From NCBI RefSeq assembly GCF_002902905.1, contig NZ_CP026124.1, positions 186,001 through 250,000 on the forward strand: DNA of 64,000 nucleotides. Reading direction: 5' to 3'. The notes under the pieces are model-generated. The model worked only from the letters and a program-made list of their open reading frames with translations. It did not search any database and was not told the origin of the DNA. The number at the start of each line of letters is the position of its first letter. The first letter of the stretch is position 1. This DNA is from Achromobacter sp. AONIH1 (GTDB lineage Bacteria; Pseudomonadota; Gammaproteobacteria; Burkholderiales; Burkholderiaceae_B). Both the position numbers and the translations under genes were made by a program. Positions 33,019 through 63,879 of the stretch are shown here, piece by piece.

Positions 33019-33137
33019 ACGGAACACGCGACCTTCCGGGGCGACAACCGGGAGCGCACCCGCTGCGGTTTGTTGACTGACGCCCTTCCGGGCGATGCCG
33101 ATGCTGGCGGCTCGTTCCCGTACCGCGAGTCGTCACC

Positions 33138-37204: not shown

Positions 37205-37793
37205 CGCCCACGTTTCCCTCTGCCACGCCGGCTGCTGCCGACGGCGGGGCAAACCTCCCGCACCCCGCGGGACTCCCCAGCGCGCGTTCCCTTCTGCAAC
37301 GGTGTGCGCGTCCTGCAGGCCCATCACGGCCTGCTGGGCGAGAAGGTCATTTCTCCCCGGATCGCGTTCGCCGCGGTTCCCCTGATCGAGGTGCTTCCGC
37401 CGATACGCGAGCGGTCTCCTGACGCCTTGGTGTGCAAAACTGCGAGGCGCCAGGAGACCGCTTGCGGTCGACGGTATTCGGTGCCGGTGCCCGCCGGCGG
37501 AACAACGGGCTCCCTTTGTGTGTGGATGCACGCCAGAGGATTCCGGCCCCCAGCCACGAAACGGGCCGGGTGAGATTGCTGACGCAGCGAATGGCTTTGA
37601 CGATGGCCTGGCCTGCTTGCAGCCCACAGGTGGATTGATTTCTCTCCAGCCGAAGCCTTGCGAGGCTTCGGCGCCTTTGTCGTGGGCGAACGGAATCGTG
37701 CATCGCTGCTCTTGCCAGCGCTCGGCCCAAACTGGACGGCGTTCGGTTCCGTTTGATCAGCGACGGAGTGCCGCCGCGCTTTCATTCTTCCCG
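37205..37793. other. Long noncoding region after topB
   Basis: About 590 bases in which all open frames look like unsupported extensions. It includes one strong hairpin (37410-37462). No gene start with a ribosome binding site was found. Confidence 0.45.
37410..37462. repeat. Large hairpin in the topB-distal gap
   Basis: Arms AGCGGTCTCCTG (37410-37421) and CAGGAGACCGCT (37451-37462) match exactly. One mismatch later they continue as CGCCT (37423-37427) and AGGCG (37445-37449). This gives a 17-pair stem around a 17-base loop. No T-run follows. It may be an RNA element or a transfer/recombination site. Confidence 0.55.
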
Positions 37794-37873
37794 CATGTGT
37801 CGCTGACGGTCGTCAGCACCATGCCCTGGCAGCCCCGGTCCTCAAGGCTGCAACGCGGTTCGCCGCGTTGACC
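37794..37873 (+). ncRNA. Repeated three-hairpin leader element, copy A
   Basis: CATG, hairpin P1 (GCTGACG/CGTCAGC), CATGCCC, hairpin P2 (GCAGCC/GGCTGC with an 11-base loop), then hairpin P3 (AACGCGG/CCGCGTT with a TTCG loop). It lies 136 bases before the gene at 38,010. All three stems are complete. Compensatory changes against copies B-D support an RNA structure. Confidence 0.7.
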
Positions 37874-37947
37874 GATCCAGTCCGCTTCGCACCGACCACC
37901 GCGGACGCGCGTCGCCACGACGCGGGTGCTTTTCATGTTCAACCCTT

Positions 37948-37966
37948 CGGGAGGTATCCGCTCCCG
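37948..37966 (+). promoter_or_regulatory. Leader hairpin before the gene at 38,010
   Basis: CGGGAG (37948-37953) pairs with CTCCCG (37961-37966) around 7 bases. It lies 43 bases before the start codon. Confidence 0.4.
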
Positions 37967-38009
37967 TCAGGGCGTGGTGCTCCCGGTCTTCAACCAACAG
38001 GAGAAAACC

Positions 38010-38261
38010 ATGTCCCTTGCGCTCGCATCGGCACCTTTGAGTGCTGAACAGGCCCGAGCCGAATCCATCGGCTACCAGGCCCTGGCCTGCGTCGGCAAGC
38101 GCCTGCCCCTGCAAGTGCTGTGCAGCGCAGCCGGCCACTACATCGGCACCGCCGATGCGGACGGCCCGGTCTCGCGGGAGTCGGTCAGCTACTTCCGCTC
38201 GCACCACGCCGCCGAGCACGCCCTGCAAACGGGCCGCTGGCAGCAGCGCCTCCACCCGTGA
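38010..38261 (+). CDS. Small conserved ICE protein of unknown function
   Basis: An 83-residue protein starting MSLALASAPLSAEQARAESIGYQALACVG and ending ...HALQTGRWQQRLHP. ATG 38010 has CAGGAGAAA upstream. No motif is recognised. It is preceded by copy A of the repeated RNA element and by a private hairpin. The short gene spacing to the next frame (25 bases) suggests one transcript. Confidence 0.55.
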   Translation: MSLALASAPLSAEQARAESIGYQALACVGKRLPLQVLCSAAGHYIGTADADGPVSRESVSYFRSHHAAEHALQTGRWQQRLHP

Positions 38262-38286
38262 TGTCCAACCACCAGGAGCCCATGTC

Positions 38287-38679
38287 ATGAACCGTGCCCT
38301 GCCTCAAGAGGTACTTGATCAGATCGAGCTGGAACACCAGCACTTCGCCGCCGCGCCCCAAGCCTTCTTCGAGGCGTGGAAACGCGGCGTCGACATCGCC
38401 GGAGCCGAATGGTTCGGCGACGGCACCCGCGAAGGCCTGCAGCGTGCCACCACCAAGTGGGATCTGCGGCCGAAGCTGCTGATGCTCAACGATGCCCTCG
38501 GCGTCCTGAGCAGCGGCCAGCGGATGTTCCTGTCCGCGATGGTGAGCTTCTACAACGCCCGCGAGGGCGGTGCGATGCTCAAGCGTTGCGGCTTCGAGGG
38601 TCTGTCCGACCTGGGCGGCCTCGACCTGGAACGGCGCAAGGTCGTCGCCGACCTGACGCTGAACTACAACGGCTGGTGA
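38287..38679 (+). CDS. Conserved ICE protein of unknown function
   Basis: A 130-residue soluble protein (MNRALPQEVLDQIELEHQ...). It has an acidic helical N-terminus and a central stretch MLNDALGVLSSGQRMFLSAMVSFYNAREGG. No catalytic motif is seen. It resembles uncharacterised proteins of ICE accessory blocks. The ATG follows a Met at 38,283 and I choose 38287 for frame reasons. Confidence 0.6.
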   Translation: MNRALPQEVLDQIELEHQHFAAAPQAFFEAWKRGVDIAGAEWFGDGTREGLQRATTKWDLRPKLLMLNDALGVLSSGQRMFLSAMVSFYNAREGGAMLKRCGFEGLSDLGGLDLERRKVVADLTLNYNGW

Positions 38680-38724
38680 GCCGCGCTGCGGCCTGCCGAC
38701 GTTCTTCTTTTCTTCCCACCCCAC

Positions 38725-38760
38725 GAGGGACATGCGTCCCTGCATGGGGCCATGTCCCTC
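38725..38760 (+). promoter_or_regulatory. Leader hairpin before the gene at 38,783
   Basis: GAGGGACATG (38725-38734) and CATGTCCCTC (38751-38760) are exact inverted repeats followed by CTTTTCTT and then the ribosome binding site AAGGAG. It looks like a terminator or attenuator placed directly before a gene. Confidence 0.55.
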
Positions 38761-38782
38761 CTTTTCTTGAAAGGAGTGATTC

Positions 38783-39247
38783 ATGTCCCCTGACTTTTCC
38801 ATCGGTCTGCTCGTGACCGACGACGACATCGATGCGGTCATCCTTGAAGGCTGGCCGGCCGACGTGCGCAAGCCGCGCATCGTGGTGTTCGACTACGCCG
38901 GCAATGATGTGCCCGACGAGTATGTGCTGCATGTCAGCAGCGGAACCCCGAATACCGGATTGACCGGGCGCGAGGTGTTCCCGGTCGAGTACGGACCCGA
39001 CTGCCGCTACCCATCGCCCGCTGAAGTCCTTTCGGTGCTCGATGCACCTAAGCCGGCCGGAAAACCTTCCGCGCTGAGCATCGCCCGCAACGTGCACCAG
39101 AGCATCCTCAACCTGGATGCGCGGCTGGATCGCCTGGAGCAGGCGCCGACCGGCGACGACTACAACCGCCTGTACCAGCTTGCGAATGGCGGCCTGCTCG
39201 ACCTGTTGAAGGCGCTGGGCGACCCGTCCTCTACCGCTGCCGGCTGA
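38783..39247 (+). CDS. Conserved ICE protein of unknown function
   Basis: A 154-residue acidic protein (MSPDFSIGLLVTDDDIDAVILEGW...). The first 80 residues look like a small alpha/beta domain, and residues about 100-135 form a predicted coiled-coil (SIARNVHQSILNLDARLDRLEQ). There is no recognised motif. AAGGAG lies 7 bases before ATG 38783. A private hairpin precedes it. Confidence 0.6.
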   Translation: MSPDFSIGLLVTDDDIDAVILEGWPADVRKPRIVVFDYAGNDVPDEYVLHVSSGTPNTGLTGREVFPVEYGPDCRYPSPAEVLSVLDAPKPAGKPSALSIARNVHQSILNLDARLDRLEQAPTGDDYNRLYQLANGGLLDLLKALGDPSSTAAG

Positions 39248-39270
39248 CCGGCTGCCACTTCATCCACCCG

Positions 39271-39318
39271 CTGGGGTTCAATCCCCAGCAGGGGATTGCC
39301 TCGGCCATCCCCTGCTGG
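39271..39318 (+). promoter_or_regulatory. Mutually exclusive leader hairpins before the gene at 39,328
   Basis: Three pairings compete. CTGGGG (39271-39276) can pair with CCCCAG (39283-39288). AATCCCC (39280-39286) can pair with GGGGATT (39291-39297). CCAGCAGGGGAT (39285-39296) can pair with ATCCCCTGCTGG (39307-39318). The last stem ends at the ribosome binding site region, so folding could switch translation. Confidence 0.5.
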
Positions 39319-39327
39319 AGAAATCCC

Positions 39328-40044
39328 ATGTCCTACTCGAACAACAATCCCTTTGTCCGCGGCTACGACGGCCTGTCCGTCCAGCGGCTGCTCGCCATCT
39401 CCTACGACGACGACTGCCCGCTGACCTACCTGCCGCTGCATCCTTCGCAGTCGAATCTGCCGGACAGCCAGGTCGAACGGCGGGCCTGCATCTTCTCGGA
39501 CGACTTCGTGCTGATCACCGAGGACCAGGTGGTCCCCAACGAGTTGCAGGCGCAATGCCGCAGCCACGGGCTCGCCCGCAACGTGGTCTATGCCGTGATG
39601 GCCGAGGAAGACGGCAAGCCACTGCACGTGGGCGACACTTACTCCGAAGAAGCGGCGCGGGAAGTCGTGCGGCGCCTGCGCTATGAAACCGGCTACTACA
39701 GCCGGTGCTGGGAAATCAGCAGCGCGCACCTCGACGCCGACGCACACCGCTTCCTCGCCGAACTGGCGGACATCGCCACGCCGACGCTGTTCCTGTTCGT
39801 CGCCTTCCGCATCCCGTACGGCCCGGCCATCGGGTTGAAGCTGATCGCCACGCCCTGGACCGACGAGAACCTGCGCGCGGTCGAAGGCATCACGGCCAAG
39901 CGGCTGATGCAGGAGCATCGCAAGAAGGGCATGCCGGAATCCCTCATGCACGTGCTGCACCTGGCCGCGCTCGCCGACGTGCGCATGCTGGTCTTCGATG
40001 CCGATGCGCAGGTGCTGGACGGCCTGCCGATCTACGACGACTGA
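39328..40044 (+). CDS. Conserved ICE protein of unknown function
   Basis: A 238-residue soluble protein (MSYSNNNPFVRGYDGLSVQRLLAISYDDDCPLTYLPLHPSQ...). The middle contains GDTYSEEAAREVVRRL and a YYSRCWEISSAHL stretch. It has no signal peptide, membrane segment or recognised domain. It is a typical single-gene unit of the ICE accessory block, with its own hairpin leader before and a terminator after. Confidence 0.6.
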   Translation: MSYSNNNPFVRGYDGLSVQRLLAISYDDDCPLTYLPLHPSQSNLPDSQVERRACIFSDDFVLITEDQVVPNELQAQCRSHGLARNVVYAVMAEEDGKPLHVGDTYSEEAAREVVRRLRYETGYYSRCWEISSAHLDADAHRFLAELADIATPTLFLFVAFRIPYGPAIGLKLIATPWTDENLRAVEGITAKRLMQEHRKKGMPESLMHVLHLAALADVRMLVFDADAQVLDGLPIYDD

Positions 40045-40054
40045 CACCACCTTT

Positions 40055-40082
40055 CGAGCCCCCACGCGGGGCTCGTATTCTT
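40055..40082 (+). terminator. Rho-independent-type terminator
   Basis: CGAGCCCC (40055-40062) and GGGGCTCG (40068-40075) form an 8-pair stem followed by the T-rich TATTCTTT. It closes the gene ending at 40,044. Confidence 0.65.
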
Positions 40083-40155
40083 TCTGGACGAAGCCGGTGG
40101 ACGCGCAGTGCCGATTCCCCCGCGTCGCTGGCCCACGCCTGACGCACGCTGCTCG

Positions 40156-40234
40156 CATGTTCGCTGGCGTTGCCGGCAAGCATGCCCAGGCAGTCGAGAC
40201 CTTCGAGGCTGCGGCACGGTTCGCCGTGCTGGTT
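40156..40234 (+). ncRNA. Repeated three-hairpin leader element, copy B
   Basis: P1 is GCTGGC/GCCGGC (one G-T pair), P2 is GCAGTC/GGCTGC (one G-T pair) with loop GAGACCTTCGA, and P3 is GCACGG/CCGTGC with a TTCG loop. CATG boxes and CATGCCCAGG are conserved. The gene at 40,337 starts 102 bases later. Confidence 0.7.
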
Positions 40235-40278
40235 GCTATTCCTTCTCCGGGCGCATGTCGCGTCCATCCACCTCACCC

Positions 40279-40317
40279 CCAAGGGACACACCTCCCTTGC
40301 GGGCGGAAGTCCCTTGG
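40279..40317 (+). promoter_or_regulatory. Leader hairpin before the gene at 40,337
   Basis: CCAAGGGAC (40279-40287) and GTCCCTTGG (40309-40317) match exactly around a 21-base loop. The stem ends 19 bases before the start codon. Confidence 0.5.
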
Positions 40318-40336
40318 TTGCCACAAGGAGTCTTCC

Positions 40337-41134
40337 ATGGATACCCAAGCCATCCGCGCACAGATGCCGACGCTGGTTCGCGGCCACGTGCCTTCCAACG
40401 TCCGCAGCTTCAAGTTCAACATCTTCGACGGCCAGCCCAAGGTTTCGACGCTGGGCTTCCACGTTGATCCCAAGCCCTTCGAGGGCAAGGTCATCGCCAC
40501 CACCGACGAGGCCATCGTCGTCAAGACGGGGCGGGCCGAGTTCGCGGTGCTCGACAAGGCCCTCGTCACCGACGTGCCCGACGAAGGCGCCAAGGTGCAG
40601 GTCGAACCGTATGCGCGGCGCCGCTTCGACGGCTTGCGCGCGGATACGCCCGAGGAGAGCACTGAGTTCACCGCCGACGGCCAGCCGTACACGGTGAAGC
40701 GGCTCATCCTGGGTTCCGCGCCGGCCAAGCTGCCGATCCCCGAGCCGCAGTGCCCCGAGCTGCAGGAGCTGATCCACCAACTGGAGCAGTTGCCCGCGCC
40801 CGATGGATTCCGCCGCATCACGCACCTGCTGGTGGATGCCGGCGCGCGGGACTTCACGGTGGTCGATCCGAGCCCCAGCAACATCATCGCCACGCCGCCG
40901 GCCATCGGCTTCACCGTCGCTTCGGCGAAGTTCCAGGGGCGCGTCACCGTGCTCTACGAACGCGGCCTCGACACCTACGCGGTGGAGCTGCATCGCGAAG
41001 GCGAGCTGGTCGAGCGGGTCGATGAAGTGTTCTTCGACACCTTGGGCCAGGTGCTGGAGCGGCTGATCGACGACGGGAGCTGGCGCCTCATCCGCGTACA
41101 GCGCCTGTCCGGTCGCAAGCCCGTCCAGCACTGA
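40337..41134 (+). CDS. Conserved ICE protein of unknown function
   Basis: A 265-residue soluble protein. Residues about 35-100 (FHVDPKPFEGKVIATTDEAIVVKTGRAEFAVLDKALV...VQVEPYARRRFDGLR) have the strand pattern of a small beta-domain, faintly like KfrB-type plasmid domains. The C-terminal half repeats a similar strand pattern (FQGRVTVLYERGLDTYAVEL). ATG 40337 has AAGGAG upstream. It is the first gene after RNA copy B and is probably co-transcribed with the DUF3085 gene. No function is assigned. Confidence 0.6.
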   Translation: MDTQAIRAQMPTLVRGHVPSNVRSFKFNIFDGQPKVSTLGFHVDPKPFEGKVIATTDEAIVVKTGRAEFAVLDKALVTDVPDEGAKVQVEPYARRRFDGLRADTPEESTEFTADGQPYTVKRLILGSAPAKLPIPEPQCPELQELIHQLEQLPAPDGFRRITHLLVDAGARDFTVVDPSPSNIIATPPAIGFTVASAKFQGRVTVLYERGLDTYAVELHREGELVERVDEVFFDTLGQVLERLIDDGSWRLIRVQRLSGRKPVQH

Positions 41135-41156
41135 TCCCCTCACGTCCCCAAGCGGC

Positions 41157-41177
41157 TTCCCGTCCTCGCGGCGGGAA
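41157..41177 (+). promoter_or_regulatory. Leader hairpin before the DUF3085 gene
   Basis: TTCCCG (41157-41162) and CGGGAA (41172-41177) form a short stem 33 bases before the ATG. Confidence 0.35.
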
Positions 41178-41209
41178 ACCTTCTTCCTTCACCGTTGGAG
41201 ACCACTTCC

Positions 41210-41575
41210 ATGACTGTTCGATTCAAAGGCACCGAGCTTCGGCCCGTGCTTGCCGAGGCGGCGGCCAACCAGTGCCGCGTCATCCTGGTCAAGGACCAGG
41301 GCGTGTATTTCATGGCCGAGCACGGCGAGAGCCGGCCCGATGGGCGGCGCAAGACCATCGCCTACGCCGTGGGCTGCAACCCCGATGTCGATGCGTTCGA
41401 CGACTGGTGGGAACTGGCGCGCGCCGAATTCGGCGGCGACGACTTCGGCGAGTTCTTCGCCCTGCAGGAACGGGTCCTCACCCGTATCCTGCACAGCGAG
41501 GACGACCTCGAAGTGTCGGCCACGGTCACGCACCTGTCGATGCAGGCGGTATCCGCTGCACCGGCCGGCCACTGA
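41210..41575 (+). CDS. DUF3085-family protein
   Basis: A 121-residue protein with the DUF3085 signature: MTVRFKGTELRPVLAEA, CRVILVKDQGVYFMAEHGE and PDGRRKTIAYAVGCNP, followed by an acidic DDWWELARAEFGGDDFGEFF segment. It is a marker of ICE and plasmid accessory blocks with unknown function. ATG 41210 (with GGAG) is preferred over the in-frame TTG at 41195. A terminator follows. Confidence 0.75.
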   Translation: MTVRFKGTELRPVLAEAAANQCRVILVKDQGVYFMAEHGESRPDGRRKTIAYAVGCNPDVDAFDDWWELARAEFGGDDFGEFFALQERVLTRILHSEDDLEVSATVTHLSMQAVSAAPAGH

Positions 41576-41589
41576 CCGTACTGCTTCCC

Positions 41590-41616
41590 AGCCCCCTTCA
41601 CGGGGGCTTCTCTTTA
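41590..41616 (+). terminator. Rho-independent-type terminator after DUF3085
   Basis: AGCCCCC (41590-41596) and GGGGGCT (41602-41608) form a 7-pair stem followed by TCTCTTTAT. Confidence 0.6.
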
Positions 41617-41718
41617 TCTCGTGCCGCGGCCCATGGCCGCATCGCACGCGCTCGTCTCCAGTCCGGCTCGGGCCGCTCACGCCGGCATCTGCCGGTGCCA
41701 CCGCCTGGTGACGCCTGC

Positions 41719-42063
41719 ATGCGAGACCCGTTCAAGATCGAGCAACCGACCTGCATCAGCTTCAGCGGCGGCCGCACCAGCGCGTACATGCTCTGGCGCG
41801 TGCTGCAAGCCAACGGCGGCCTGCCCGCAGATGCCGTCGTCTGCTTCGCCAACACCGGAAAAGAAGTGGAAGCCACCTTGCGCTTCGTGCGCGACTGCGC
41901 CGAGCACTGGCAAGTGCCGATCCACTGGCTGGAGTACCGGCCCATCGAACCGGGCTTCGTGGTGGTGGACTTCGATACCGCCAGCCGCGCGGGCGAGCCC
42001 TTCGAGATGCTGGTCCGCAAGCGGCAGTACCTGCCCAACCCGGTGGCGAGAGGGTGCCACTAA
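41719..42063 (+). pseudogene. Truncated PAPS-reductase-like (PP-loop ATPase) gene
   Basis: The 114-residue frame starts MRDPFKIEQP and holds the PP-loop SFSGGRTSA at about 14-22 and CFANTGKE, as in phosphoadenosine phosphosulfate reductase-like proteins of ICEs. Those full proteins are, from memory, about 280-300 residues. Here the frame ends at RKRQYLPNPVARGCH, just where the conserved R.C region should continue, so about 60 percent is missing. The sequence after the stop is already the upstream part of RNA copy C, which suggests a deletion. PP-loop proteins of this type occur in phosphorothioation and antiphage systems, but this one is probably dead. Confidence 0.65.
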
Positions 42064-42126
42064 TGCGGACAGCCGCCGGTGCCGATTGCCGCTCGCGCGG
42101 GCGCGCGCCTGGCGCCACGCTGCCGC

Positions 42127-42208
42127 CATGTTCCGCTGACGCCCGTCAGCAGCATGCCCAGGCAGTCTCGATCTTCAAGACTGCGACGCGGTTCCGACCG
42201 CGTTGATC
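42127..42208 (+). ncRNA. Repeated three-hairpin leader element, copy C
   Basis: P1 is GCTGACG/CGTCAGC, P2 is GCAGTC/GACTGC (a perfect stem, with the C-G pair of copy A changed to T-A), and P3 is ACGCGGT/ACCGCGT with a TCCG loop. The flanking CATG and CATGCCCAGG are conserved. The DUF3577 gene starts 153 bases later. Confidence 0.7.
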
Positions 42209-42241
42209 AACCAGTTCGCTCCGGCATCCCAGCGCGAACAG

Positions 42242-42260
42242 CCATCGGTTCTCCCGATGG
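42242..42260 (+). promoter_or_regulatory. Additional leader hairpin after RNA copy C
   Basis: CCATCGG (42242-42248) and CCGATGG (42254-42260) are exact inverted repeats with a 5-base loop, between the RNA element and the DUF3577 gene. Confidence 0.45.
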
Positions 42261-42361
42261 TGATGCCACCCAAGCTGTTCCTTCAACCCACGCGGGGGTT
42301 CCACACCTTCCCCGCCTTGGGTCGGGTGTGTCTCCGCCTCATTGTTCTCAGGAGATTCACC

Positions 42362-42925
42362 ATGACCACTTCCACCGACAAGTCCTACTTCGACCTGCAC
42401 ATCACCGGACTCGGGTATCTCAATCGCATCCGCGAAGTGAAGCCCAAGAAAGGCGATGCGTTCCTGGCCTGCGACATCGCGGCGCTCAACGGCCCCAGCG
42501 ATGACGTGGCCTACGTGCGTTTCGACACGCGCGTCTCGGGCTCCGAAGCGCAGCACCTCGTGCGCCGCTGCATCCAAGCGGTCGATGCCGAGAAGAAAGT
42601 GATGATCGGCTTCCGTCTGGGCGACCTGTGGGCCGACACCTTCACCTACTCCAAGGGCAAGCGTGCCGGCGAGCAGGGGGTGAGCTTCAAGGCCCGCCTG
42701 CTGTTCGTCAGTTGGATCAAGGTCGACGGCAAGCTCGTCTACAAGGCCGAGCCCAAGCCGACCGATGCCGACCAGCGCGACGAACGCGACGTGCGTAACA
42801 CGGATGTCCCCGCGACGTTCGCTGAGCCGCAAGCCGCTGCGTTCGAGCCCGCCAGGCCCGCCGCCGAAGCTGCCGACGAAGCCACTGCCGATGCGCCTGC
42901 ATTGGAAGTTGCCGAGTCGTTCTGA
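42362..42925 (+). CDS. DUF3577 (STY4534-type) ICE protein
   Basis: A 187-residue protein with the DUF3577 core: KSYFDLHITGLGYLNRIREVKPKKGDAFLACDIAALNG and YVRFDTRVSGSEAQHLVRRC...KVMIGFRLGDLW. This is a common ICE accessory protein with an OB-like pattern, possibly a single-strand-binding or replication accessory protein. The C-terminal 50 residues are low-complexity and acidic. ATG 42362 has CAGGAG upstream. RNA copy C lies in its leader. Confidence 0.75.
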   Translation: MTTSTDKSYFDLHITGLGYLNRIREVKPKKGDAFLACDIAALNGPSDDVAYVRFDTRVSGSEAQHLVRRCIQAVDAEKKVMIGFRLGDLWADTFTYSKGKRAGEQGVSFKARLLFVSWIKVDGKLVYKAEPKPTDADQRDERDVRNTDVPATFAEPQAAAFEPARPAAEAADEATADAPALEVAESF

Positions 42926-42932
42926 TCCGCAA

Positions 42933-42968
42933 GGCCCCGACTCTGAATTGAGTCCGGGGCTTTGTCTT
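42933..42968 (+). terminator. Terminator after the DUF3577 gene
   Basis: GCCCCG-ACTC and GAGTCCGGGGC form a stem with one bulge around TGAATT, followed by TTTGTCTT. Confidence 0.65.
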
Positions 42969-43045
42969 CTCCCACTCGCGTGCGCATGCGACCGTCGCCA
43001 TGACGGCCGTGTGCGTGATCGCAGCTTCGTCCGCAGGAGTTCTTC

Positions 43046-43675
43046 ATGATCACCATTCCCGGCCAATTGGCCATCAAGACCATCCACGGCCGTAACGGCG
43101 ACTTCAACGTCGGGCGCCTTGCGACCTCCATCGGCGAGTTCGTCGTGAAGAACGCCGAACTCGACCAGTACGCCGAAGGCAAGTACGAGGGCGATTTCGC
43201 CATCGCGGAGATTCGCCCGTCCACGTACACCGCCAACGGCCGCATGGTCATTGAGATCCGCGCCCTCCTGGGTGGGATGACTTTGTCCAACATCGACGCC
43301 CTGAGCCGTGACGACGCCCGCCGGCTGAGTCCGCAGGAAGTCGATCCGATCGACGAGGAAGCGCAGACCGCCACGCCGACGCCGACGACCGCCCCCAAGG
43401 CGGCCGGCCGGAAGAAGGCGCGCAGCTCGCGCGACCCGCTGGTCGATACCACGCCGTTCGGCAGCGAGCCGGCTGCTGCGTCTGCCGAGGCTACGGCCCA
43501 TGCGGACGACGACGGCGACGCGGCGCTGTTCGGCACACTCTGGCCGCTGGGCGATGTCGTCAAGCTCGATGCCACCGTGGATCGGCGCGTGCTGCGTCAG
43601 CAGCGCGACCGCCTCGGCGACCTGGGCTACGAGTTCGCTCCGCTGTCCCAGGACTGGCACCTCACCAGGGTCTGA
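43046..43675 (+). CDS. DUF3275-family protein
   Basis: A 209-residue protein with the DUF3275 start MITIPGQLAIKTIHGRNGDFNVGRL and a KYEGDFAIAEIRPSTY core. A Thr/Pro/Ala-rich linker (about 110-150) leads to a C-terminal 50-residue domain (VVKLDATVDRRVLRQQRDRLGDLGYEF). It is typical of ICE accessory blocks, with unknown function. A GCAGGAG-type ribosome binding site lies before ATG 43046. Confidence 0.75.
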   Translation: MITIPGQLAIKTIHGRNGDFNVGRLATSIGEFVVKNAELDQYAEGKYEGDFAIAEIRPSTYTANGRMVIEIRALLGGMTLSNIDALSRDDARRLSPQEVDPIDEEAQTATPTPTTAPKAAGRKKARSSRDPLVDTTPFGSEPAAASAEATAHADDDGDAALFGTLWPLGDVVKLDATVDRRVLRQQRDRLGDLGYEFAPLSQDWHLTRV

Positions 43676-43717
43676 TCCCATCGCCATTTCACGCCGCATG
43701 CCTGCGGCTTTCCACCA

Positions 43718-43743
43718 CCCGCCGGGGCTCCTTCCCCGGCGGG
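43718..43743 (+). promoter_or_regulatory. Leader hairpin before the gene at 43,777
   Basis: CCCGCCGGGG (43718-43727) and CCCCGGCGGG (43734-43743) pair exactly around 6 bases. The gene starts 34 bases later. Confidence 0.5.
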
Positions 43744-43776
43744 AGGACTCCGGCCCTTTCTCACAGGAGTCATTCC

Positions 43777-44169
43777 ATGGGCTGGACATTCGTTCGATTG
43801 ACGCGCGATCAGTTGATCCGCGAGCTGACCGCAACCGAGGAAACCGAGCGGTCGCGCAGTGAGGTCATCGACCACACGCTGGTCGGCAACGTGCTGTGGA
43901 CGGTGGCGCGCGTCACCGCCAAGCAGGCCGGCGTCCTGGGTCTCGCACCCGGCGAGTCGGCCACCTTGATCGGCTGCCATCTGCTGGAAAGCGAGGGCCG
44001 CGAATGGGGCTACAAGTTCCTGGTCGAGGCCGAGCACCCGTACTACTACTCGTGCCCGCTGCGCTATCTCGACATGGCGCCGCAGCGCTGCGCCACCTGG
44101 CGCGCAAGGGTGCATGCCTTCCACCAGCAGCCGACGCGCAAAGCGGCCGGCGATGCAGCCACCGACTGA
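43777..44169 (+). CDS. Conserved ICE protein of unknown function
   Basis: A 130-residue soluble protein starting MGWTFVRLTRDQLIREL. The middle has GHL-like strands (GESATLIGCHLLESEGREWGYKFLVEAEHPYYYSCPLRYLDM). No known domain is assigned. CAGGAG is before ATG 43777. It ends 7 bases before the next gene, so they form a pair. Confidence 0.6.
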   Translation: MGWTFVRLTRDQLIRELTATEETERSRSEVIDHTLVGNVLWTVARVTAKQAGVLGLAPGESATLIGCHLLESEGREWGYKFLVEAEHPYYYSCPLRYLDMAPQRCATWRARVHAFHQQPTRKAAGDAATD

Positions 44170-44176
44170 GGCGAAC

Positions 44177-44446
44177 ATGGACACCCTCATGTCGTCCTTG
44201 CCGCCCGAGCTGCTTCGCTTCGTCGAAGACCAGTTGGCCAACAACGAGGTTTCCGACGACGACGAACTGCGCGAGCACTTCATCGCCAACGGCCTGAGCG
44301 AAGAACAGGCGTGGCAGGCACTGACCTACCGCGCGCTGTACCTGCGACACGTCTTTCTCGACGGCTTCACGCCGATCCTCAAAGGCCAGGAAGCGCTTTG
44401 CTTCAACCCGCACAGCCGCGGCTGGGAGCCGGTTCCGAACCCATAG
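44177..44446 (+). CDS. Small conserved ICE protein of unknown function
   Basis: An 89-residue acidic, helical protein (MDTLMSSLPPELLRFVEDQLANNEVSDDDELREHF...). I choose ATG 44177 because it follows the preceding stop closely and the upstream in-frame codons overlap that gene. No motif is recognised. A terminator follows. Confidence 0.6.
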   Translation: MDTLMSSLPPELLRFVEDQLANNEVSDDDELREHFIANGLSEEQAWQALTYRALYLRHVFLDGFTPILKGQEALCFNPHSRGWEPVPNP

Positions 44447-44487
44447 GCCGGCCTTCACGCGGCGCACTTCTTCATCCCTTTCATCAG

Positions 44488-44512
44488 GCCCTGTTCAGCA
44501 GGGCTTTTCTTC
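44488..44512 (+). terminator. Rho-independent terminator
   Basis: GCCCTG (44488-44493) and CAGGGC (44499-44504) around TTCAG, followed by TTTTCTTC. Confidence 0.7.
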
Positions 44513-44529
44513 GTCCTACGCAATCGCAC

Positions 44530-44554
44530 GCATCCGGCCTCGGCCGCTGGATGC
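44530..44554 (+). promoter_or_regulatory. Leader hairpin before the DUF932 gene
   Basis: GCATCC (44530-44535) pairs with GGATGC (44549-44554), with an inner GGCC/GGCC pair. It ends 29 bases before the ATG. Confidence 0.45.
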
Positions 44555-44583
44555 CGATTGCTCCATTCCGCAAGGAGATCATC

Positions 44584-45411
44584 ATGCAACTCGCATCTCG
44601 CTTCGCCCCTCGTTCCCCGGTGCTGCGCGCCGACCATCCGTTGTCGGACGATCAGATTCGCACCGTGGCCCCATCCATCTTCGCGGACACCCCGCACGAA
44701 AGCCGCTCCGAACGGTACAGTTACATCCCCACGGCGGCTGTGCTGACCGAACTGCGCAGAGAAGGTTTCCAGCCGTTCATGGTGTGCCAGACCCGCGTGC
44801 GACACGAGGATCGCCGCGACTACACCAAGCACATGCTGCGCCTTCGCCACGCCAGCCAGATCAACGGCGCCGAGGCGAACGAGATCATCCTGCTCAACTC
44901 GCACGACGGCACCAGCAGCTACCAGATGCTCGCGGGCATGTTCAGATTCGTCTGCCACAACGGCCTGGTGTGCGGCGACACCTTCGCCGACGTGCGCGTG
45001 CCCCACAAGGGCAACGTCACCGATCACGTGATCGAAGGCGCCTACGAGGTGCTGCACGGCTTCGAGCGCGTGCAGGACTCGCGCGACGCCATGCGCGTCA
45101 TCACCCTCGACGACGGCGAGGCCGAAGTCTTCGCCAGGTCGGCGCTGACCTTGAAGTACGACGAGTCGGGCAAGGCCTTGCCCATCACGGAGACGCAGAT
45201 CCTGCGGCCTCGTCGTTTCGACGACAACCGTGCCGATCTTTGGTCGGTCTTCAACCGGGTTCAGGAGAACCTGGTCAAGGGCGGCCTGACTGGCCGTGCC
45301 GCCAACGGGCGCCAGCAGCGCACGCGACCCGTTCAGGGCATCGACCAGAACGTCCGGCTCAACCGGGCGCTTTGGCTGCTCGCGGATGGCCTGCGTCAGC
45401 TCAAAGCCTGA
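44584..45411 (+). CDS. DUF932-family protein
   Basis: A 275-residue protein of the DUF932 family, common on phages, plasmids and ICEs. Recognised segments are YIPTAAVLTELRREGFQPFMVCQTRVR, LNSHDGTSSYQMLAGMFRFVCHNGLVCGD and VIEGAYEVL. The role is unknown; some phage relatives are suspected DNA-processing proteins. ATG 44584 has AAGGAG at 7 bases. A terminator at 45418-45454 ends the unit. Confidence 0.8.
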   Translation: MQLASRFAPRSPVLRADHPLSDDQIRTVAPSIFADTPHESRSERYSYIPTAAVLTELRREGFQPFMVCQTRVRHEDRRDYTKHMLRLRHASQINGAEANEIILLNSHDGTSSYQMLAGMFRFVCHNGLVCGDTFADVRVPHKGNVTDHVIEGAYEVLHGFERVQDSRDAMRVITLDDGEAEVFARSALTLKYDESGKALPITETQILRPRRFDDNRADLWSVFNRVQENLVKGGLTGRAANGRQQRTRPVQGIDQNVRLNRALWLLADGLRQLKA

Positions 45412-45417
45412 CCCACA

Positions 45418-45454
45418 AGCGGATCGTGCCTCGCGGCATGGTCCGCTTTTTCTT
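45418..45454 (+). terminator. Terminator after the DUF932 gene
   Basis: AGCGGA/TCCGCT and the inner TGCC/GGCA form a two-part stem, followed by TTTTTCTTT. Confidence 0.65.
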
Positions 45455-45733
45455 TGGCGGCGCTGTGCTGCCAGCGCACCACGTTCAGTTTGGTTCGGTG
45501 TAACCCTAATGCGGCAATTCGCTGCCGCCGCGAAAATTGCGGTTCGACTGCATACCTCCCTGGCTTTTCCTCCCTGAGCCAAGCAGTCATCTTTGCCGCC
45601 TCGGTGTTCCCGGGGCGGTTTTCTTTTATGGCCGTCCTTCCAGGCCGCGGGCGATGCGCCAGCGCAAACAGGGTTGGACGCTGGGTCGGTTTTCCGCTCC
45701 CGCTGTAGGCGCACCTTGGCGCAGGCTATGTCC
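45455..45733. other. Noncoding stretch between DUF932 and RNA copy D
   Basis: No gene is seen. It contains a second terminator-like hairpin at 45595-45627 (GCCGCCTCGG paired with CCCGGGGCGG, then TTTTCTTTT), although no gene precedes it. That suggests a lost small gene or a terminated small RNA between 45,455 and 45,595. Confidence 0.4.
45595..45627 (+). terminator. Orphan terminator-like hairpin
   Basis: A GC-rich stem with a TGTT loop followed by a T-rich run, about 180 bases after the nearest gene stop. Confidence 0.5.
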
Positions 45734-45810
45734 CATGTCCGTCGGCGTTGCCGACAACATGCCCAGGTAGTCCAGACCTTCAAGGCTACGGTGCGTTGCG
45801 ACGCACGGTC
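45734..45810 (+). ncRNA. Repeated three-hairpin leader element, copy D
   Basis: P1 is GTCGGC/GCCGAC, P2 is GTAGTC/GGCTAC with loop CAGACCTTCAA, and P3 is GTGCGT/ACGCAC with a TGCG loop. Its stems differ in sequence from copies A-C at both sides of the same pairs. This is the strongest evidence that structure is conserved. The downstream gene starts 101 bases later. Confidence 0.75.
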
Positions 45811-45855
45811 TGATTCTTCACCACGACGCTCACCGCGTCTTCTTCCATCCCCCTG

Positions 45856-45870
45856 GGGCAGTGACTGCCC
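45856..45870 (+). promoter_or_regulatory. Leader hairpin before the gene at 45,912
   Basis: GGGCAG (45856-45861) and CTGCCC (45865-45870) with a TGA loop. Confidence 0.4.
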
Positions 45871-45911
45871 TCGCGGTTGGTGCTGTCTCCGCTCACTTCG
45901 AGGACATCACC

Positions 45912-46568
45912 ATGCCTGCACCTTCTTCCCCCAAGACGCTCTATCGCATCGACGAATGCCCCGACCTGATGGCCGATGGCGTCGTCGGTGACGAGAACGG
46001 CAACCTGGTCTTCATCTCCCTCTGGGCGCGCGACACCGCCGTCCAGGAATTCCTGGCCCGCCTCACCCTGGGCCGGGACGAACAGGGACTGGATCAGTTC
46101 CACGTCATCACCGAGCAGGGCGCCAGCATCCCGGTCTTCGTCGGCAACGTCGAGAACCTGGAGAAACGCAGCGCACGCGCCTACCGGCGCACGCTGTTCG
46201 GCTCGCTGACCAACATCTGGCTGTTCGATCGGCGCTGCGTCAAACCCGACAAGGCCAACGCCAGCGCACTGGCGCTCCTGCCTCGCGATTCCACGCACCG
46301 GCTCGACCGGCTGTGGACGCTGGTGCGGGACACGTGCCCGCTGCCGCTTCTCGATCCCTGGCGCGACAGCGTACTGGAACTGCTGCAGGCGAAGTCGATG
46401 CTGACGCGCCTGCCGTTCGCCCTCGGGCCTCTGGAAGGCCATCGGCTCGCCATCGACGTGCCGACGCTGACCGAGGTGCTGGGCGGCCTGATCCGCAGCG
46501 GCGCGCTCGTCGGCGGCGCACCCGCCAGCCGCACCCCCTCGGCGCAACCGCTCGAAGCGGTGGCTTGA
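45912..46568 (+). CDS. Conserved ICE protein of unknown function
   Basis: A 218-residue soluble protein (MPAPSSPKTLYRIDECPDLMADGVVGDENGNLVFISLWARDTAVQEFL...). It has no catalytic motif; the first 150 residues have an alternating strand-helix pattern, and the C-terminus is Ala/Pro-rich. It is headed by RNA copy D and a short hairpin. ATG 45912 has GAGGACATCACC before it. Confidence 0.6.
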   Translation: MPAPSSPKTLYRIDECPDLMADGVVGDENGNLVFISLWARDTAVQEFLARLTLGRDEQGLDQFHVITEQGASIPVFVGNVENLEKRSARAYRRTLFGSLTNIWLFDRRCVKPDKANASALALLPRDSTHRLDRLWTLVRDTCPLPLLDPWRDSVLELLQAKSMLTRLPFALGPLEGHRLAIDVPTLTEVLGGLIRSGALVGGAPASRTPSAQPLEAVA

Positions 46569-58260: not shown

Positions 58261-58770
58261 GTGCCATGATGGGCGTGCCCACCTACCATGTGCTCGCCCT
58301 GTCTGGGGGCGGCTATCGCGGCTTGTACACAGCGACGGTTCTTGCCGAGCTTGAAGCCGTGCTAGGCCGCCCCATCGCTTCTCACTTCGACCTGATCTGC
58401 GGCACCTCTGCAGGCGGGATGCTGGCCTTGGGGCTGGCCGCGGAAATCCCCGCCATTGAACTCAAAGCCTTGTTCGAACGACAGGGCTCCCGCATCTTTG
58501 GTTGCCGAAGTCTCGCTCGGCGCCTTCTGGGCTTCTGGTTGACCGCCAAGCACGACTCCGCAGGGTTGCGGGGCGTGCTGACCGAGCGCTTTCAAGACGC
58601 CACGATCGGCAACTTGAAGCACCGCGTTCTCGTGCCAGCCGTCAACTACTCGACGGGGCGCGGCCAGTTCTTCAAAACGCCTCACCATCCCTCATTTGAG
58701 ATGGACCACCGCATGAGGATCGTGGATGTGGCGTTGGCGACCGCCGCTGCGCCCGTTTACTTTCCGCTAG

Positions 58771-59948
58771 GGACGCTCTGCATAACCCCGGGCAAGTCTG
58801 CTACCGCATGAACTGAACAGCTGAGAGCATGCAGGTCATGAAGCAGACGAGTCTGGGCCTGGGGCAGTCGAACAAGCGAACGCGCAGGCGGGCGTTCCTC
58901 GAAGAGATGGACGCTGTGGTGCCGTGGTCGGAACTGGTCGAGCTGATCAGCCCCTTCATGCCCGAAGGCCGACGTGGCCGCCCGCCGTTTGCTGTCGAGG
59001 TCATGCTGCGGGTTCACTTCATGCAGCAGTGGTTCAACCTGAGCGACCCCGCCATGGAAGAGGCACTGCACGACATGGCGCTGTTCCGCGACTTCGCGGG
59101 CCTAGGCGGTTGGGACGAGCGGGTGCCCGACGAGAGCACCATCCTGCGCTTTCGGCGCGTGCTGGAGAAGCACAAGTTGGCGCCCAAGATCCTGCAGGCC
59201 ATCAACGACTTGCTGCGCAGCAAGGGGCTGATGCTGCGTGCCGGCACGGTGGTGGACGCCACGTTGATTGCCGCGCCCAGCTCGACCAAGAACGCCAGCG
59301 GCGAGCGTGATCCCGAGATGAAGCAGAGCAAGAAGGGCCAGCAGTGGTTCTTCGGCATGAAGGCCCACATCGGCGTGGACGCCGAGTCCGGCCTGGTGCA
59401 CACGGTGCGGGGCACAGCCGGCAGCGTCAGCGACGTGACCGAGGCCAACGCGCTGCTGCACGGTGAAGAGCGCGAGGCGTTTGGTGATGCGGGGTACCAG
59501 GGGGCTCACAAACGCCCTGACGCCAAGCCCGATGTGCGCTGGAGTGTCGCCATGCGCCCCGGCAAGCGCCGGGCGCTGGACAAGACGCGCGAGTCGAATC
59601 GCTTGATCGATGAACTGGAGCGGCTCAAGGCCAGCATCCGGGCCAAGGTGGAGCATCCGTTTCGGGTGATCAAGCGGCAGTTCGGCCACGTCAAGGTGCG
59701 CTACCGGGGGCTGGCGAAGAACACGGCCCAACTGCACACGCTGTTTGCGTTGTCCAACCTGTGGATGGCGCGCCGCAAATTGGGCGGGCTGCAGGCATGA
59801 GTGCGCCTGCAAAGCGCGCAAACCATCGCAGCAACGGCCTGCGAGCACTGGAATCGCCCCCAATCTCTCCGCCAAACGCATCCGCGAGACGGCGGCGTCC
59901 TTTCAATTCAAGCGGCGCACGGACTCTGGCGCTTTGTGCAGACCTTCC
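58771..59948 (+). mobile_element. IS5-group insertion sequence, 1178 bp
   Basis: The element is bounded by the target duplication CTAG (58767-58770 and 59949-59952). Its ends are imperfect inverted repeats: GGACGCTCTGCATAA on the left and GGAAGGTCTGCACAA read from the right, 12 of 15 identical. Size, ends and 4-bp YTAR-type target fit the IS5 group of the IS5 family. It carries one intact transposase gene in the same direction as the CBASS genes. The transposase and ends look intact, so it may still be active. Confidence 0.85.
58829..59800 (+). CDS. IS5-group transposase
   Basis: A 323-residue DDE transposase starting MQVMKQTSLGLGQSNKRTRRRAFLEEMDAVVPW. The first catalytic Asp is in VVDATLI, the second in FGDAGYQG, and the Glu in VEHPFRVIKRQFGHVKVRYRG with the Y-(2)-R-(3)-E-(6)-K type spacing of IS4/IS5 enzymes. 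The start could also be the ATG nine bases later. All three acidic residues are present. It interrupts capV. Confidence 0.9.
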   Translation: MQVMKQTSLGLGQSNKRTRRRAFLEEMDAVVPWSELVELISPFMPEGRRGRPPFAVEVMLRVHFMQQWFNLSDPAMEEALHDMALFRDFAGLGGWDERVPDESTILRFRRVLEKHKLAPKILQAINDLLRSKGLMLRAGTVVDATLIAAPSSTKNASGERDPEMKQSKKGQQWFFGMKAHIGVDAESGLVHTVRGTAGSVSDVTEANALLHGEEREAFGDAGYQGAHKRPDAKPDVRWSVAMRPGKRRALDKTRESNRLIDELERLKASIRAKVEHPFRVIKRQFGHVKVRYRGLAKNTAQLHTLFALSNLWMARRKLGGLQA

Positions 59949-60442
59949 CTAGCGCGCAACGATCGTGGCGTCTTTGCGGATGGAGGACTGGTCGGCAATG
60001 CGCCAGGACTGTTCGGGCTGCACGAAGTCAATACGTTCCTCGCGCCGAAACAGAATGCACTGGTCCGGGTGCTGTCCATCGGCACGATGACGATCGGTGC
60101 AACCGTCCGTGGCGGCGCCAGCCTCGACCGCGGATTCGGCAAGTGGCGCGGAGGGCTGTTCGATCTGGTGATCTCTGCCCAGGAGTCGTCGGTGGACTAC
60201 ATGCTGCGCCAGTCGTTGGGTAGCAACTACTTCCAGATCGACGACAAGGCCACGCCCGATCAAAGCAAGGACGTAAAGGCGCTGGACCGGGTTTCCATCG
60301 GCGCCACGAATACGCTGAAGGACCGCGGCAATCATGCAGCGCAGCGCGCGCTTGGCGACCCTCTTTTCCAACCGTTTCGAGCGCACCAGGCCGGCGCACC
60401 CACCTTCTATCACGGCCCCAACAAGAATGTGCCGGAGGCCGA

Positions 60443-61585
60443 ATGCTGAACCTGAGCCCGCTTTTCTTTACCACCGTCGATGACGAATCCTGCATGCATG
60501 ACGAGCTGGATCTGTCGCCCGAGCAACGAGCCTGGATCGCCAGCGCCCGAAATGATGTCAGGAACTGCCTTCGCACCGGAATTCCGCGCGTGCTGCGCGA
60601 ACGCGGGTACACGGACGACGTGCCGCAGCCACGCTTCTTCACGCAAGGATCGTGGGCGTACAAGACCTTGAACGGCCCGGCACAACGGCCCCAGCAGGCG
60701 GATGTCGATGATGGTTGCTATCTGCCGTTGAGTTTTGTCTCGCAGACGAAGCGTCCCAGCAGGGCCACAACGGTGTTCTTTGCAGCTGCTGAAGAAGCCT
60801 TGAGGCTGTTGGTCGAGGAGAAGCACTGGAAGCTTGTCACCGACAAGCCGACATGCATCCGGATTGTCATTGCGGCCTATGCCCACATCGACATTCCGTT
60901 GTACGCCATCCCCGACGAAGAATTCGTCACGCTCGCGAAAGCCTCGATGGAGCGATACGGCTATGACTCGCTGACGGAGGCGGTGAACATGGCAGAGCGG
61001 GATGCCTGGACGGCATTGCCCGCTGATAAAGTGCTCCTGGCTCACCGCGAGTGCAACTGGATGCCCTCCGACCCCAGGCCTGTGAAGGAATGGTTTTTGG
61101 GCGAGGTGGAGGCCAAGGGCGAACAGTTCCGCCGCGTGATTCGCTACTTGAAGGCGTTTCGCGATTGGCGGTGGTCGAGCGGTGGACCGGCTTCGATTCT
61201 GTTGATGGCCGCTGCGGCTCCGCTATTCGAGAAGCGGGATCGGCGCGACGACCTGGCGTTGCTGGATGTCGTCGCGGCATTGCCGGCCCGGCTGCGCGCG
61301 GGGGTGAACAACCCCGTTGATGAGTCGGAGTCGCTTACTGCACGCCTTGGTAAAGAGGGCGTCGAAGAGGCTGCGAAAGCGTTCGAAGCATTCGAAAAAG
61401 TGCTGCGCGGAGCCACCAACGCCGGCAGCCCTTCACAGGCCTGCGTCTGGATGCAAGGCGAATTCGGTCCGCGTTTTCCGAACGAGCCGGACCGGGTCAA
61501 GGTGGTATCCGTTGTCGCCACCATTGCCGCAGCGCCGGCTACGGCTGGTCCGAGCGAATTGGTCGGGCGCACGAAGGCCGGATGA
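60443..61585 (+). CDS. CBASS CD-NTase, DncV-type (cGAMP synthase)
   Basis: A 380-residue cGAS/DncV-like nucleotidyltransferase of clade A. Gly69-Ser70 in FFTQGSW, Asp87 and Asp89 in ADVDDG, and Asp150 in [10 protein letters not shown] form the active site, and the flanking sequence follows Vibrio DncV closely ([19 protein letters not shown]). It should make 3'3'-cGAMP upon phage infection. The C-terminus ends in Ala-Gly, as needed for Cap2 conjugation of the terminal glycine. The start overlaps the capV stop by 7 bases. Confidence 0.9.
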
Positions 61586-63674: not shown

Positions 63675-63879
63675 AGCACTAGCGCAACAACCATCATCGT
63701 CTTGACTTGCACCTCCACTCAGACGGTAGTGCATTAAAGACGACGTCATCGGGGAAATTCCTTCCTCTGCAGCGGAGTTTGCCGCGGAAAGCGGTGGCTG
63801 GCCGGTTCCGATTGATTGCGGCGCCGGAAGACCGGCCGTTTGAGCATCGAGCCATCCGCATCCCTCGGAGAACGGCTCG

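Follow-up and report, generated by a model that had tools for sequence, protein, structure and literature searches.

Why should one structured RNA element stand in front of four different genes of the same mobile element? We asked this question for a stretch of 64,000 nucleotides from Achromobacter sp. AONIH1 (contig NZ_CP026124.1, positions 186,001 to 250,000 of the forward strand), which is hereafter called the window. The four copies (A to D) lie in an integrative and conjugative element (ICE) of the ICEclc/PAGI-2/PFGI-1 type. A first-pass annotation of the letters had described them as a structured RNA with three stems (P1, P2 and P3) and as a possible shared regulator of several ICE genes. 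It was right that a structured RNA with strong covariation is common to several ICE genes and lies in their leaders, but it had missed that the RNA is a known family, radC. Our comparisons suggest that radC RNA is a 5′-terminal leader that controls the translation of ICE replication and establishment genes. We give this reading a probability of about 0.55.

Identity of the four RNA elements

All four copies matched RF01754 (radC RNA, Rfam) on the + strand and over the full model, with E values from 1e-23 to 3e-15. The bit scores were 120.7 (A), 93.5 (B), 126 (C) and 88.6 (D), far above the Rfam gathering cut-off of 40 bits for this family. By this comparison with Rfam, which the first-pass annotation had proposed, the four ICE leader elements are all members of the radC RNA family. 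The annotation had also raised a possible identity with the DUF3085 RNA motif. No DUF3085 RNA matched in Rfam at E values up to 1 between positions 37000 and 47000, despite the presence of a DUF3085 gene at 41210, and this candidate was rejected.

Members of the radC RNA family lie upstream of, and on the same strand as, a gene that often encodes RadC or another DNA-handling protein. Copies A to D are each upstream of and on the same strand as a gene (4/4, + strand). The survey by Weinberg and colleagues contains a table whose columns are reportedly RNA, cis-regulatory and switch. In this survey, radC RNA is catalogued as a cis-regulatory orphan, with no function assigned, and its row of the table reads Y, y, ? 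and Proteobacteria (Weinberg et al. 2010; PMC2864571). No functional study of radC RNA came up when open papers in PubMed Central were searched by text.

The copies and their paired regions are as follows.

37794..37930, + strand: radC RNA copy A (Rfam match 37784-37929)
37802-37808/37811-37817, 37829-37834/37846-37851 and 37852-37858/37863-37869, + strand: copy A stems P1 (inner), P2 and P3
37837-37840 with 37870-37873, + strand: copy A pseudoknot 1 (PK1)
37880-37885/37901-37906, 37909-37914/37918-37923, and 37888-37893 with 37925-37930, + strand: copy A 3′ module, namely P4, P5 and pseudoknot 2 (PK2)
40156..40234, + strand: radC RNA copy B (Rfam match 40146-40306), with P1, P2, P3 and PK1
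40198-40201 with 40231-40234, + strand: copy B PK1, with one G·U pair
42127..42267, + strand: radC RNA copy C (Rfam match 42117-42266), with P1-P3 and PK1 (42170-42173 with 42205-42208)
42214-42219/42234-42239, 42242-42248/42254-42260, and 42223-42228 with 42262-42267, + strand: copy C 3′ module, namely P4, P5 and PK2
45734..45810, + strand: radC RNA copy D (Rfam match 45724-45877), with P1-P3 and PK1 (45775-45778 with 45807-45810)

The four copies of the first-pass annotation, their coordinates and every arm that it had named for P1, P2 and P3 are present in the sequence. Copy A deviates from the words that it had called conserved, CATG and the P2 loop (CATGCCCTGG, with the loop GGTCCTCAA). 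Its intervals are real but too short. Their final four bases are the 3′ strand of a pseudoknot between the P2 loop and the tail, and copies A and C extend to 37930 and 42267, each with a second pseudoknot.

Covariation, pseudoknots and the folding strand

We analyzed covariation in 121 matches, weak ones among them, whose alignment had 107 distinct rows and was fitted to P1-P3 and not to PK1. Standard pairs occupied 95.2% of the pair cells of P1, P2, P3 and the PK1 core, compared with 79.5% in column shuffles and 26-49% when the partners were slid by 1-3 columns. The covariation score was 0.423, against 0.181 (sd 0.005) in shuffled columns and at most 0.075 with slid partners, and none of the 500 shuffles reached it. 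Two-sided changes were found in 25 of the 27 pairs. The two-sided changes that the first-pass annotation had noted in the four copies are borne out by this larger alignment.

In PK1, the P2 loop pairs with the bases directly 3′ of P3. The pairing occurs in all four copies (GGTC/GACC in A, GACC/GGTT in B, GATC/GATC in C and GACC/GGTC in D). For PK1 and for the count of G·U and A·C combinations given below, the last 7 of the 121 rows and one truncated row were dropped, and 99 unique rows in 51 clusters were left. Of the 6 possible pairs, 5.0 were formed in these clusters, compared with 3.98 (sd 0.10; best of 2000, 4.35) when the 3′ strands were permuted among clusters; the clusters ignore the tree, and swapping and permutation controls here and below only partly remove relatedness.

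The second module consists of P4, the loop of which pairs with the 3′ end beyond P5 to form PK2. In the window, it was detected in copies A and C only. The module takes the forms GCATCC/GGATGC, GCTTCC/GGAAGC, GCATTC/GAATGC, GCTTCT/AGAAGC, GCGTTC/GAACGC and GCACTC/GAGTGC. P4 with PK2 took the expected form in 45 of 48 clusters, with a mean score of 33.3 against 24.1 in shuffled tails. Since the parser searches for the best fit, the shuffled tail serves as its control. The exceptions were copies B (L008) and D (L009), which gave none, and L007, the parse of which looks spurious.

The structure line printed for RF01754 in Rfam 15 shows P1, P2, P3 and P5 and no pseudoknot, and its 3-base closing stem pairs bases of P4 and PK2 differently. 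As judged from the alignments, PK1, P4 and PK2 are additions to the Rfam 15 model, and copies B and D lack P4/PK2. A passage of PMC7657543 lists radC among families with extra covarying pairs and does not specify which; given this listing, PK1 or PK2 may already be on record.

On the gene strand, G·U outnumbered A·C by 56 to 9 in P1 inner, P2, P3 and the four-pair PK1 core (51 clusters; binomial p 2e-9), and by 78 to 30 when the loose outer pairs were added. The outer pairs are often unpaired (17 G·U and 10 A·C in P1 outer; 5 and 11 in the two outer PK1 pairs). These sums were added by hand from a table, and the outer pairs were excluded only after the table had been seen. Since G·U exceeds A·C on the gene strand, the transcript is the folding strand. 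Sequence comparison puts the family, the stems, both pseudoknots and the folding strand on firm ground.

Predicted start of the RNA

In 38 of 64 clusters, the best sigma70-type -35/-10 match ended at -3 to +1 of model position 1, and 34 of these 38 clusters possess TTGAC (mean best score 7.9, against 7.0 in shuffled sequences). A start 7 bases past this match would fall at model positions 6-10, and P1 begins at position 9. In a second collection of 37 clusters, TTGAC was present in 7 and absent from 30. Another motif, AA-N2-(C/G/A)GG-N13-C(C/G)G(A/T)TT, was found at a fixed place in 29 of these 30 clusters. Its second block lies 61-63 bases before CATG, and the log-likelihood was 319.6 against 151-162 in 8 shuffles. 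The window possesses this promoter-type motif at the following sites.

37729..37754, + strand: motif of copy A, AA-N2-NGG-N13-CCGTTT, one position off the strict pattern, 65 bases before CATG
40091..40116, + strand: motif of copy B, 65 bases before CATG
42062..42087, + strand: motif of copy C, 65 bases before CATG
45667..45692, + strand: motif of copy D, 67 bases before CATG
33046..33071, + strand: motif directly upstream of the putative PinR promoter counterpart, used as the reference for the predicted RNA start

When the motif was written more loosely, 2 matches were obtained in 360,000 strand-bases of chromosome and 295 in 80 ICE loci. A radC core follows 180 of the 295 ICE-locus matches, many of which are near-identical and some of which overlap. 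The window has 7 matches, namely those of copies B, C and D, that of the PinR counterpart, and those at 63788, 10168 (- strand) and 23647.

The PinR start in ICEclc was mapped 25 bases before the start codon, with the boxes TTGACT and TGTCGATCCT, according to the accessible part of PMC2892462. In the window, the motif ends at 33071, TTGACT follows at 33073 and TGCCGATGCT, as the -10 box, at 33096, with a start codon farther on, at 33138; this site looks like the counterpart of the PinR promoter. The distance from the motif end to the predicted start is 42 bases at this site. By analogy with PinR, the radC RNAs would start at 37796, 40158, 42129 and 45734, which is 0-2 bases into CATG. Two unrelated promoter types thus agree in placing the predicted start no more than 3 bases from where P1 begins.

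The motif is common to the radC leaders and the PinR-type promoter and is possibly the site of a transfer activator; its match at 63788 has no radC RNA. A 114-aa reading frame (41719-42063) ends just at the motif of copy C; its PAPS-reductase-like match is weak and falls short of the Pfam cut-off.

We found no support for equating the radC core with the 27-bp motif of eight ICEclc promoters: the published list includes PinR and TraI (PMC9286271), yet in this genome radC copies are absent from the PinR counterpart and from the 6 kb upstream of TraI. The upstream motif, of 26 bp, may be the same as the 27-bp motif; it does precede the PinR counterpart. Against this identity, a legend gives 152 bp from the 27-bp motif to the PinR start, versus about 42 for the upstream motif, and the accessible part of that paper reports no 27-bp motif outside its eight regions (PMC9286271), whereas the upstream motif also precedes copies B and C. 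When ICEclc itself was sought with a promoter-box pattern in 398 Pseudomonas genomes and in 43 from the host genus, the 6 matches all fell in Pseudomonas and were taken as chance.

For comparison with ICEclc, gene names were mapped by arithmetic on L079 alone, on the assumption that ORF names are 3′ coordinates. By this arithmetic, region UR84835 is the likely counterpart of the gene behind copy C, with a misfit of 235 bases. The genes mapped behind copies A and C have transcripts with stationary-to-exponential log2 ratios of 6.5 and 6.3 in the accessible data of PMC2892462. P88400 is one of nine bimodal ICEclc promoters, and post-transcriptional layers and processing are suspected for some ICEclc regions, as stated in passages of PMC9286271. 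The ICEclc data agree in part with a translational leader.

A hairpin at the Shine-Dalgarno site

Measured from the 3′ end of PK1, copies A to D lie 136, 102, 153 and 101 bases before the start codons at 38010, 40337, 42362 and 45912, which were picked by their Shine-Dalgarno (SD) sites; the spacing in the first-pass annotation was correct. Just before each start codon is a hairpin.

38010..38261, + strand: 83-aa gene behind copy A, no Pfam match
37976..38009, + strand: SD hairpin of this gene, GGTGCTCC paired with GGAG..ACC
40337..41134, + strand: gene of 265 aa behind copy B, whose KfrB-like match is weak and does not reach the Pfam cut-off
40305..40336, + strand: SD hairpin of this gene
42362..42925, + strand: gene behind copy C for a DUF3577 / STY4534-family ICE replication protein
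42325..42361, + strand: SD hairpin of this gene, GGTG-TCTCC with GGAGA-CACC
45912..46568, + strand: gene of 218 aa behind copy D, matched by neither Pfam nor NCBIfam
45879..45911, + strand: SD hairpin of this gene

In this hairpin, the SD site is paired with an upstream strand, for example as GGTGTCTCC/GGAGATGCC in L148 and GAGTGTTTCC/GGAGACACTC in L157. Its energy, its pairing and the exchange of its arms were tested in leaders of 190-290 bases before proteins of at least 70 aa, in 40 clusters. The arm-arm energy was -15.88, against -12.53 (sd 0.47; lowest of 500, -13.84) when arms were swapped among the 40 leaders. Own and swapped energies differed little in the controls (-10.8/-11.5 for chromosome genes and -12.3/-12.0 for ICE-region genes without radC). 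Mean SD pairing was 0.84 in the 40 radC-led leaders, 0.37 in 65 chromosome genes (p 4e-11) and 0.49 in 205 ICE-region genes without radC (p 2e-12). The window copies gave 0.67 (A), 0.78 (B), 0.80 (C) and 0.77 (D). By these comparisons, the SD hairpin is a firm result.

The adjacent upstream hairpin holds another strand that can pair, and covaries, with the anti-SD strand (-14.96 against -12.75, sd 0.43). A competing partner for the anti-SD strand is what a switch would require.

A callable gene lay behind 147 of 169 radC matches, and the median distance from element start to start codon was 234; starts were called by the SD rule (doubtful calls: L117, L222, L228, L232 and L239), and short words were used to guess the strand of loci that alignment A4 does not contain. 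Among representative downstream proteins of the relatives, 22 of 76 were DUF3577 and 12 of 76 were RadC. A comparison with PHROGs contributed little.

Proposed mechanism and alternative explanations

Based on these results, we infer the RNA start and the translational role as follows. Each radC copy would form the 5′ end of an mRNA whose transcription starts at the first base of P1 or only a few bases from it. Folding of the nascent RNA would give P1 and the loop-tail pseudoknot (P2/P3/PK1), to which copies A and C would add P4/P5/PK2. About 45-70 bases further on, the hairpin would pair the SD site with the upstream strand, so that by default there is little or no translation. Several ICE genes would then be translated, or silenced, together through a shared factor or condition recognizing the common pseudoknot domain. 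These would include the genes for the replication protein DUF3577 and RadC and small conserved genes. The proposal of the first-pass annotation that one factor controls several units through this RNA is plausible.

Several results weigh against a translational leader. No P4/PK2 module was found in copies B and D. A nearer but cruder control of SD pairing was less sharp, with 0.865 in 52 leaders, 0.676 when the upstream letters were shuffled and 0.63 in 49 genes of the same loci. Of eight scored ICE genes of the window without radC, four (39328, 43046, 43777 and 44584) reach 0.72-0.79 and the other four 0.16-0.56; thus, the SD hairpin is not confined to radC genes. In the 40 clusters, pairing to the anti-SD strand was detected neither from the core (own -12.52, swapped -12.29, sd 0.34) nor from P4/PK2 (own -11.77, swapped -11.96, sd 0.36), and therefore no simple strand exchange joins the core to the platform. 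Furthermore, UR84835 had no promoter activity in a reporter, according to the accessible part of PMC9286271, which speaks against an own promoter for each copy.

This last result would suit a 5′ stabilizer or processing site, whose structured end shields the mRNA from RNase E or marks the cutting of a long ICE transcript into gene-sized mRNAs. P1 stands at the predicted 5′ end. Moreover, in the accessible part of PMC9286271, ICEclc RNA-seq coverage rises without promoter activity at UR84835, which may be the copy C counterpart, and at UR89247 and UR73676; the authors ascribe such rises to fragments that were too small or to transcript processing. We consider this explanation unlikely, since it leaves the conserved, covarying SD hairpin unexplained and since distant copies often have an own TTGAC promoter (in the expected place in 34 of 64 clusters), which makes processing unnecessary there. 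The same hairpin is unexplained by a processive antitermination leader of the put, EAR or JUMPstart type, which would allow read-through of long ICE operons. A pseudoknotted RNA at the predicted RNA start and the long ICE transcripts described in PMC2892462, as far as accessible, would fit such a leader. However, several Pseudomonas loci carry 2-3 elements 0.6-1.5 kb apart, with room for about one short gene each and hence without a long operon that would need read-through, and the window has no JUMPstart or epsC/EAR match in Rfam, so that antitermination seems improbable.

The element might also act as DNA. A Frpo- or ssi-like promoter in the transferred single strand would let establishment genes be read in the recipient before second-strand synthesis. 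Several copies per element stand before RadC and replication-type genes, all copies in the host genome are on the strand of its three TraI genes, and in leading regions, where Frpo is repeated, the genes for anti-defence, methyltransferase and SSB share one strand (PMC11541004, in part). The accessible part of that paper does not mention radC. A Frpo-type structure belongs on the template strand, where G·U becomes C·A, and would be expected to show the reverse of the observed ratio (56 to 9, or 78 to 30 with outer pairs, in favor of G·U on the gene strand). In addition, the double-strand promoter signals place the start at P1 and hence the structure inside the transcript. A single-stranded promoter is therefore disfavoured and, in our estimation, very unlikely. 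We attach hardly any weight to a double-strand operator, in which a protein would bind the inverted repeats as DNA, the RNA being incidental. A DNA motif does lie at fixed spacing upstream of every window copy, but it is separate from the radC element, and pairing-preserving two-sided changes across two pseudoknots, together with the G·U excess, are features of RNA.

Beyond the translational leader itself, we tentatively propose that radC RNA is the translational switch of a whole class of ICEs. Such a double-pseudoknot leader, served by either of two unrelated promoters, might let one shared signal gate the replication and establishment genes; we rate this wider claim as possible rather than probable.

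Genomic context and distribution

The host genome has 14 radC copies in three islands (5, 5 and 4). Every copy lies on the + strand, which also carries the genome's three genes for TraI_2 relaxases. The neighbours of the window copies include topoisomerase, AcaB, DUF3577, DUF3275, DUF932, PilL2 and TraG/TraD-type genes. A covariance model and a search of related elements had been suggested by the first-pass annotation; a model built from 11 copies gave 242 matches in 89 sources, all on the + strand. Of 121 loci with a relative of the copy C gene, the best 80 were used. Matches to radC were found in at least 165 of 298 Pseudomonas genomes, at least 39 of 268 genomes of the host's family and, also as a lower bound, 1 of 239 genomes drawn from the class, namely the host itself; these are lower bounds since the whole-genome searches used strict filters and few candidates per genome.

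In six 20-kb regions around Pseudomonas copies, with 67 of 93 called ORFs scanned, the tally has TraI_2, TraG_N, TraC, DUF3577, DUF3275 and DUF6094. ICE core genes were seen protein by protein in L257, L258, L261 and L262, and none were found in three proteins scanned from L259 and L260. The Pseudomonas loci L147, L149, L150, L151 (which overlaps L173), L152, L162, L164, L179, L200 and L211 have 2-3 radC leaders at intervals of 0.6-1.5 kb, many with their own TTGAC promoter.

A candidate trans-acting small RNA lies at 45536-45630 (+ strand), between the DUF932 gene and copy D. In Rfam it resembles anti-hemB RF02837 weakly (37 bits against a cut-off of 49.5; E 5e-5) and suhB/mmgR more weakly still. 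Two CCTCCC stretches lie in a hairpin, and there is a terminator that is rich in G+C and has a T run. Blast matches were obtained in 15 loci, including L009, which is the window's own region, and the RNA part alone was found in L023 and L040. Judging from its letters, its CCUCCC could pair with SD sites. Elsewhere in the window (58266-63210) is a CBASS-like defence cargo with patatin, DncV-like nucleotidyltransferase and ThiF/E2 genes; a transposase gene sits between the patatin gene and the remaining CBASS-like genes.

Comparison with known systems and implications

A translational riboswitch consists of a compact pseudoknotted domain followed by a hairpin that sequesters the SD site. The radC leader resembles it in its pseudoknotted domain and its SD hairpin; its anti-SD strand has an alternative partner in the adjacent hairpin. 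The radC leader differs in that it has no known ligand, pairing of the core with the anti-SD strand was not detected, and its genes are non-metabolic. In the FinP/traJ system of F-type plasmids, an mRNA leader of a conjugative element folds over the ribosome site and is regulated by an antisense RNA that this locus itself encodes. The radC leaders are likewise mRNA leaders in a conjugative element with a covered ribosome site. In contrast, when both strands of the window were searched with two conserved radC stretches, matches outside the copies were never more than partial, and there was no clear candidate for a trans RNA partner. STAXI RNA is also pseudoknotted, repeated and near DNA-handling and antirestriction genes, as far as the accessible part of PMC2864571 describes it. 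However, the window has no Rfam match to STAXI.

With the added structure, a predicted RNA start and an SD hairpin, radC RNA becomes a regulator that can be tested directly. If the wider claim of a switch is true, this class of ICEs would have a post-transcriptional layer above the known promoter cascade; if the translational-leader reading is true, the transfer genes of the ICEclc family would gain translational control beside the MfsR-TciR-BisR-BisDC cascade.

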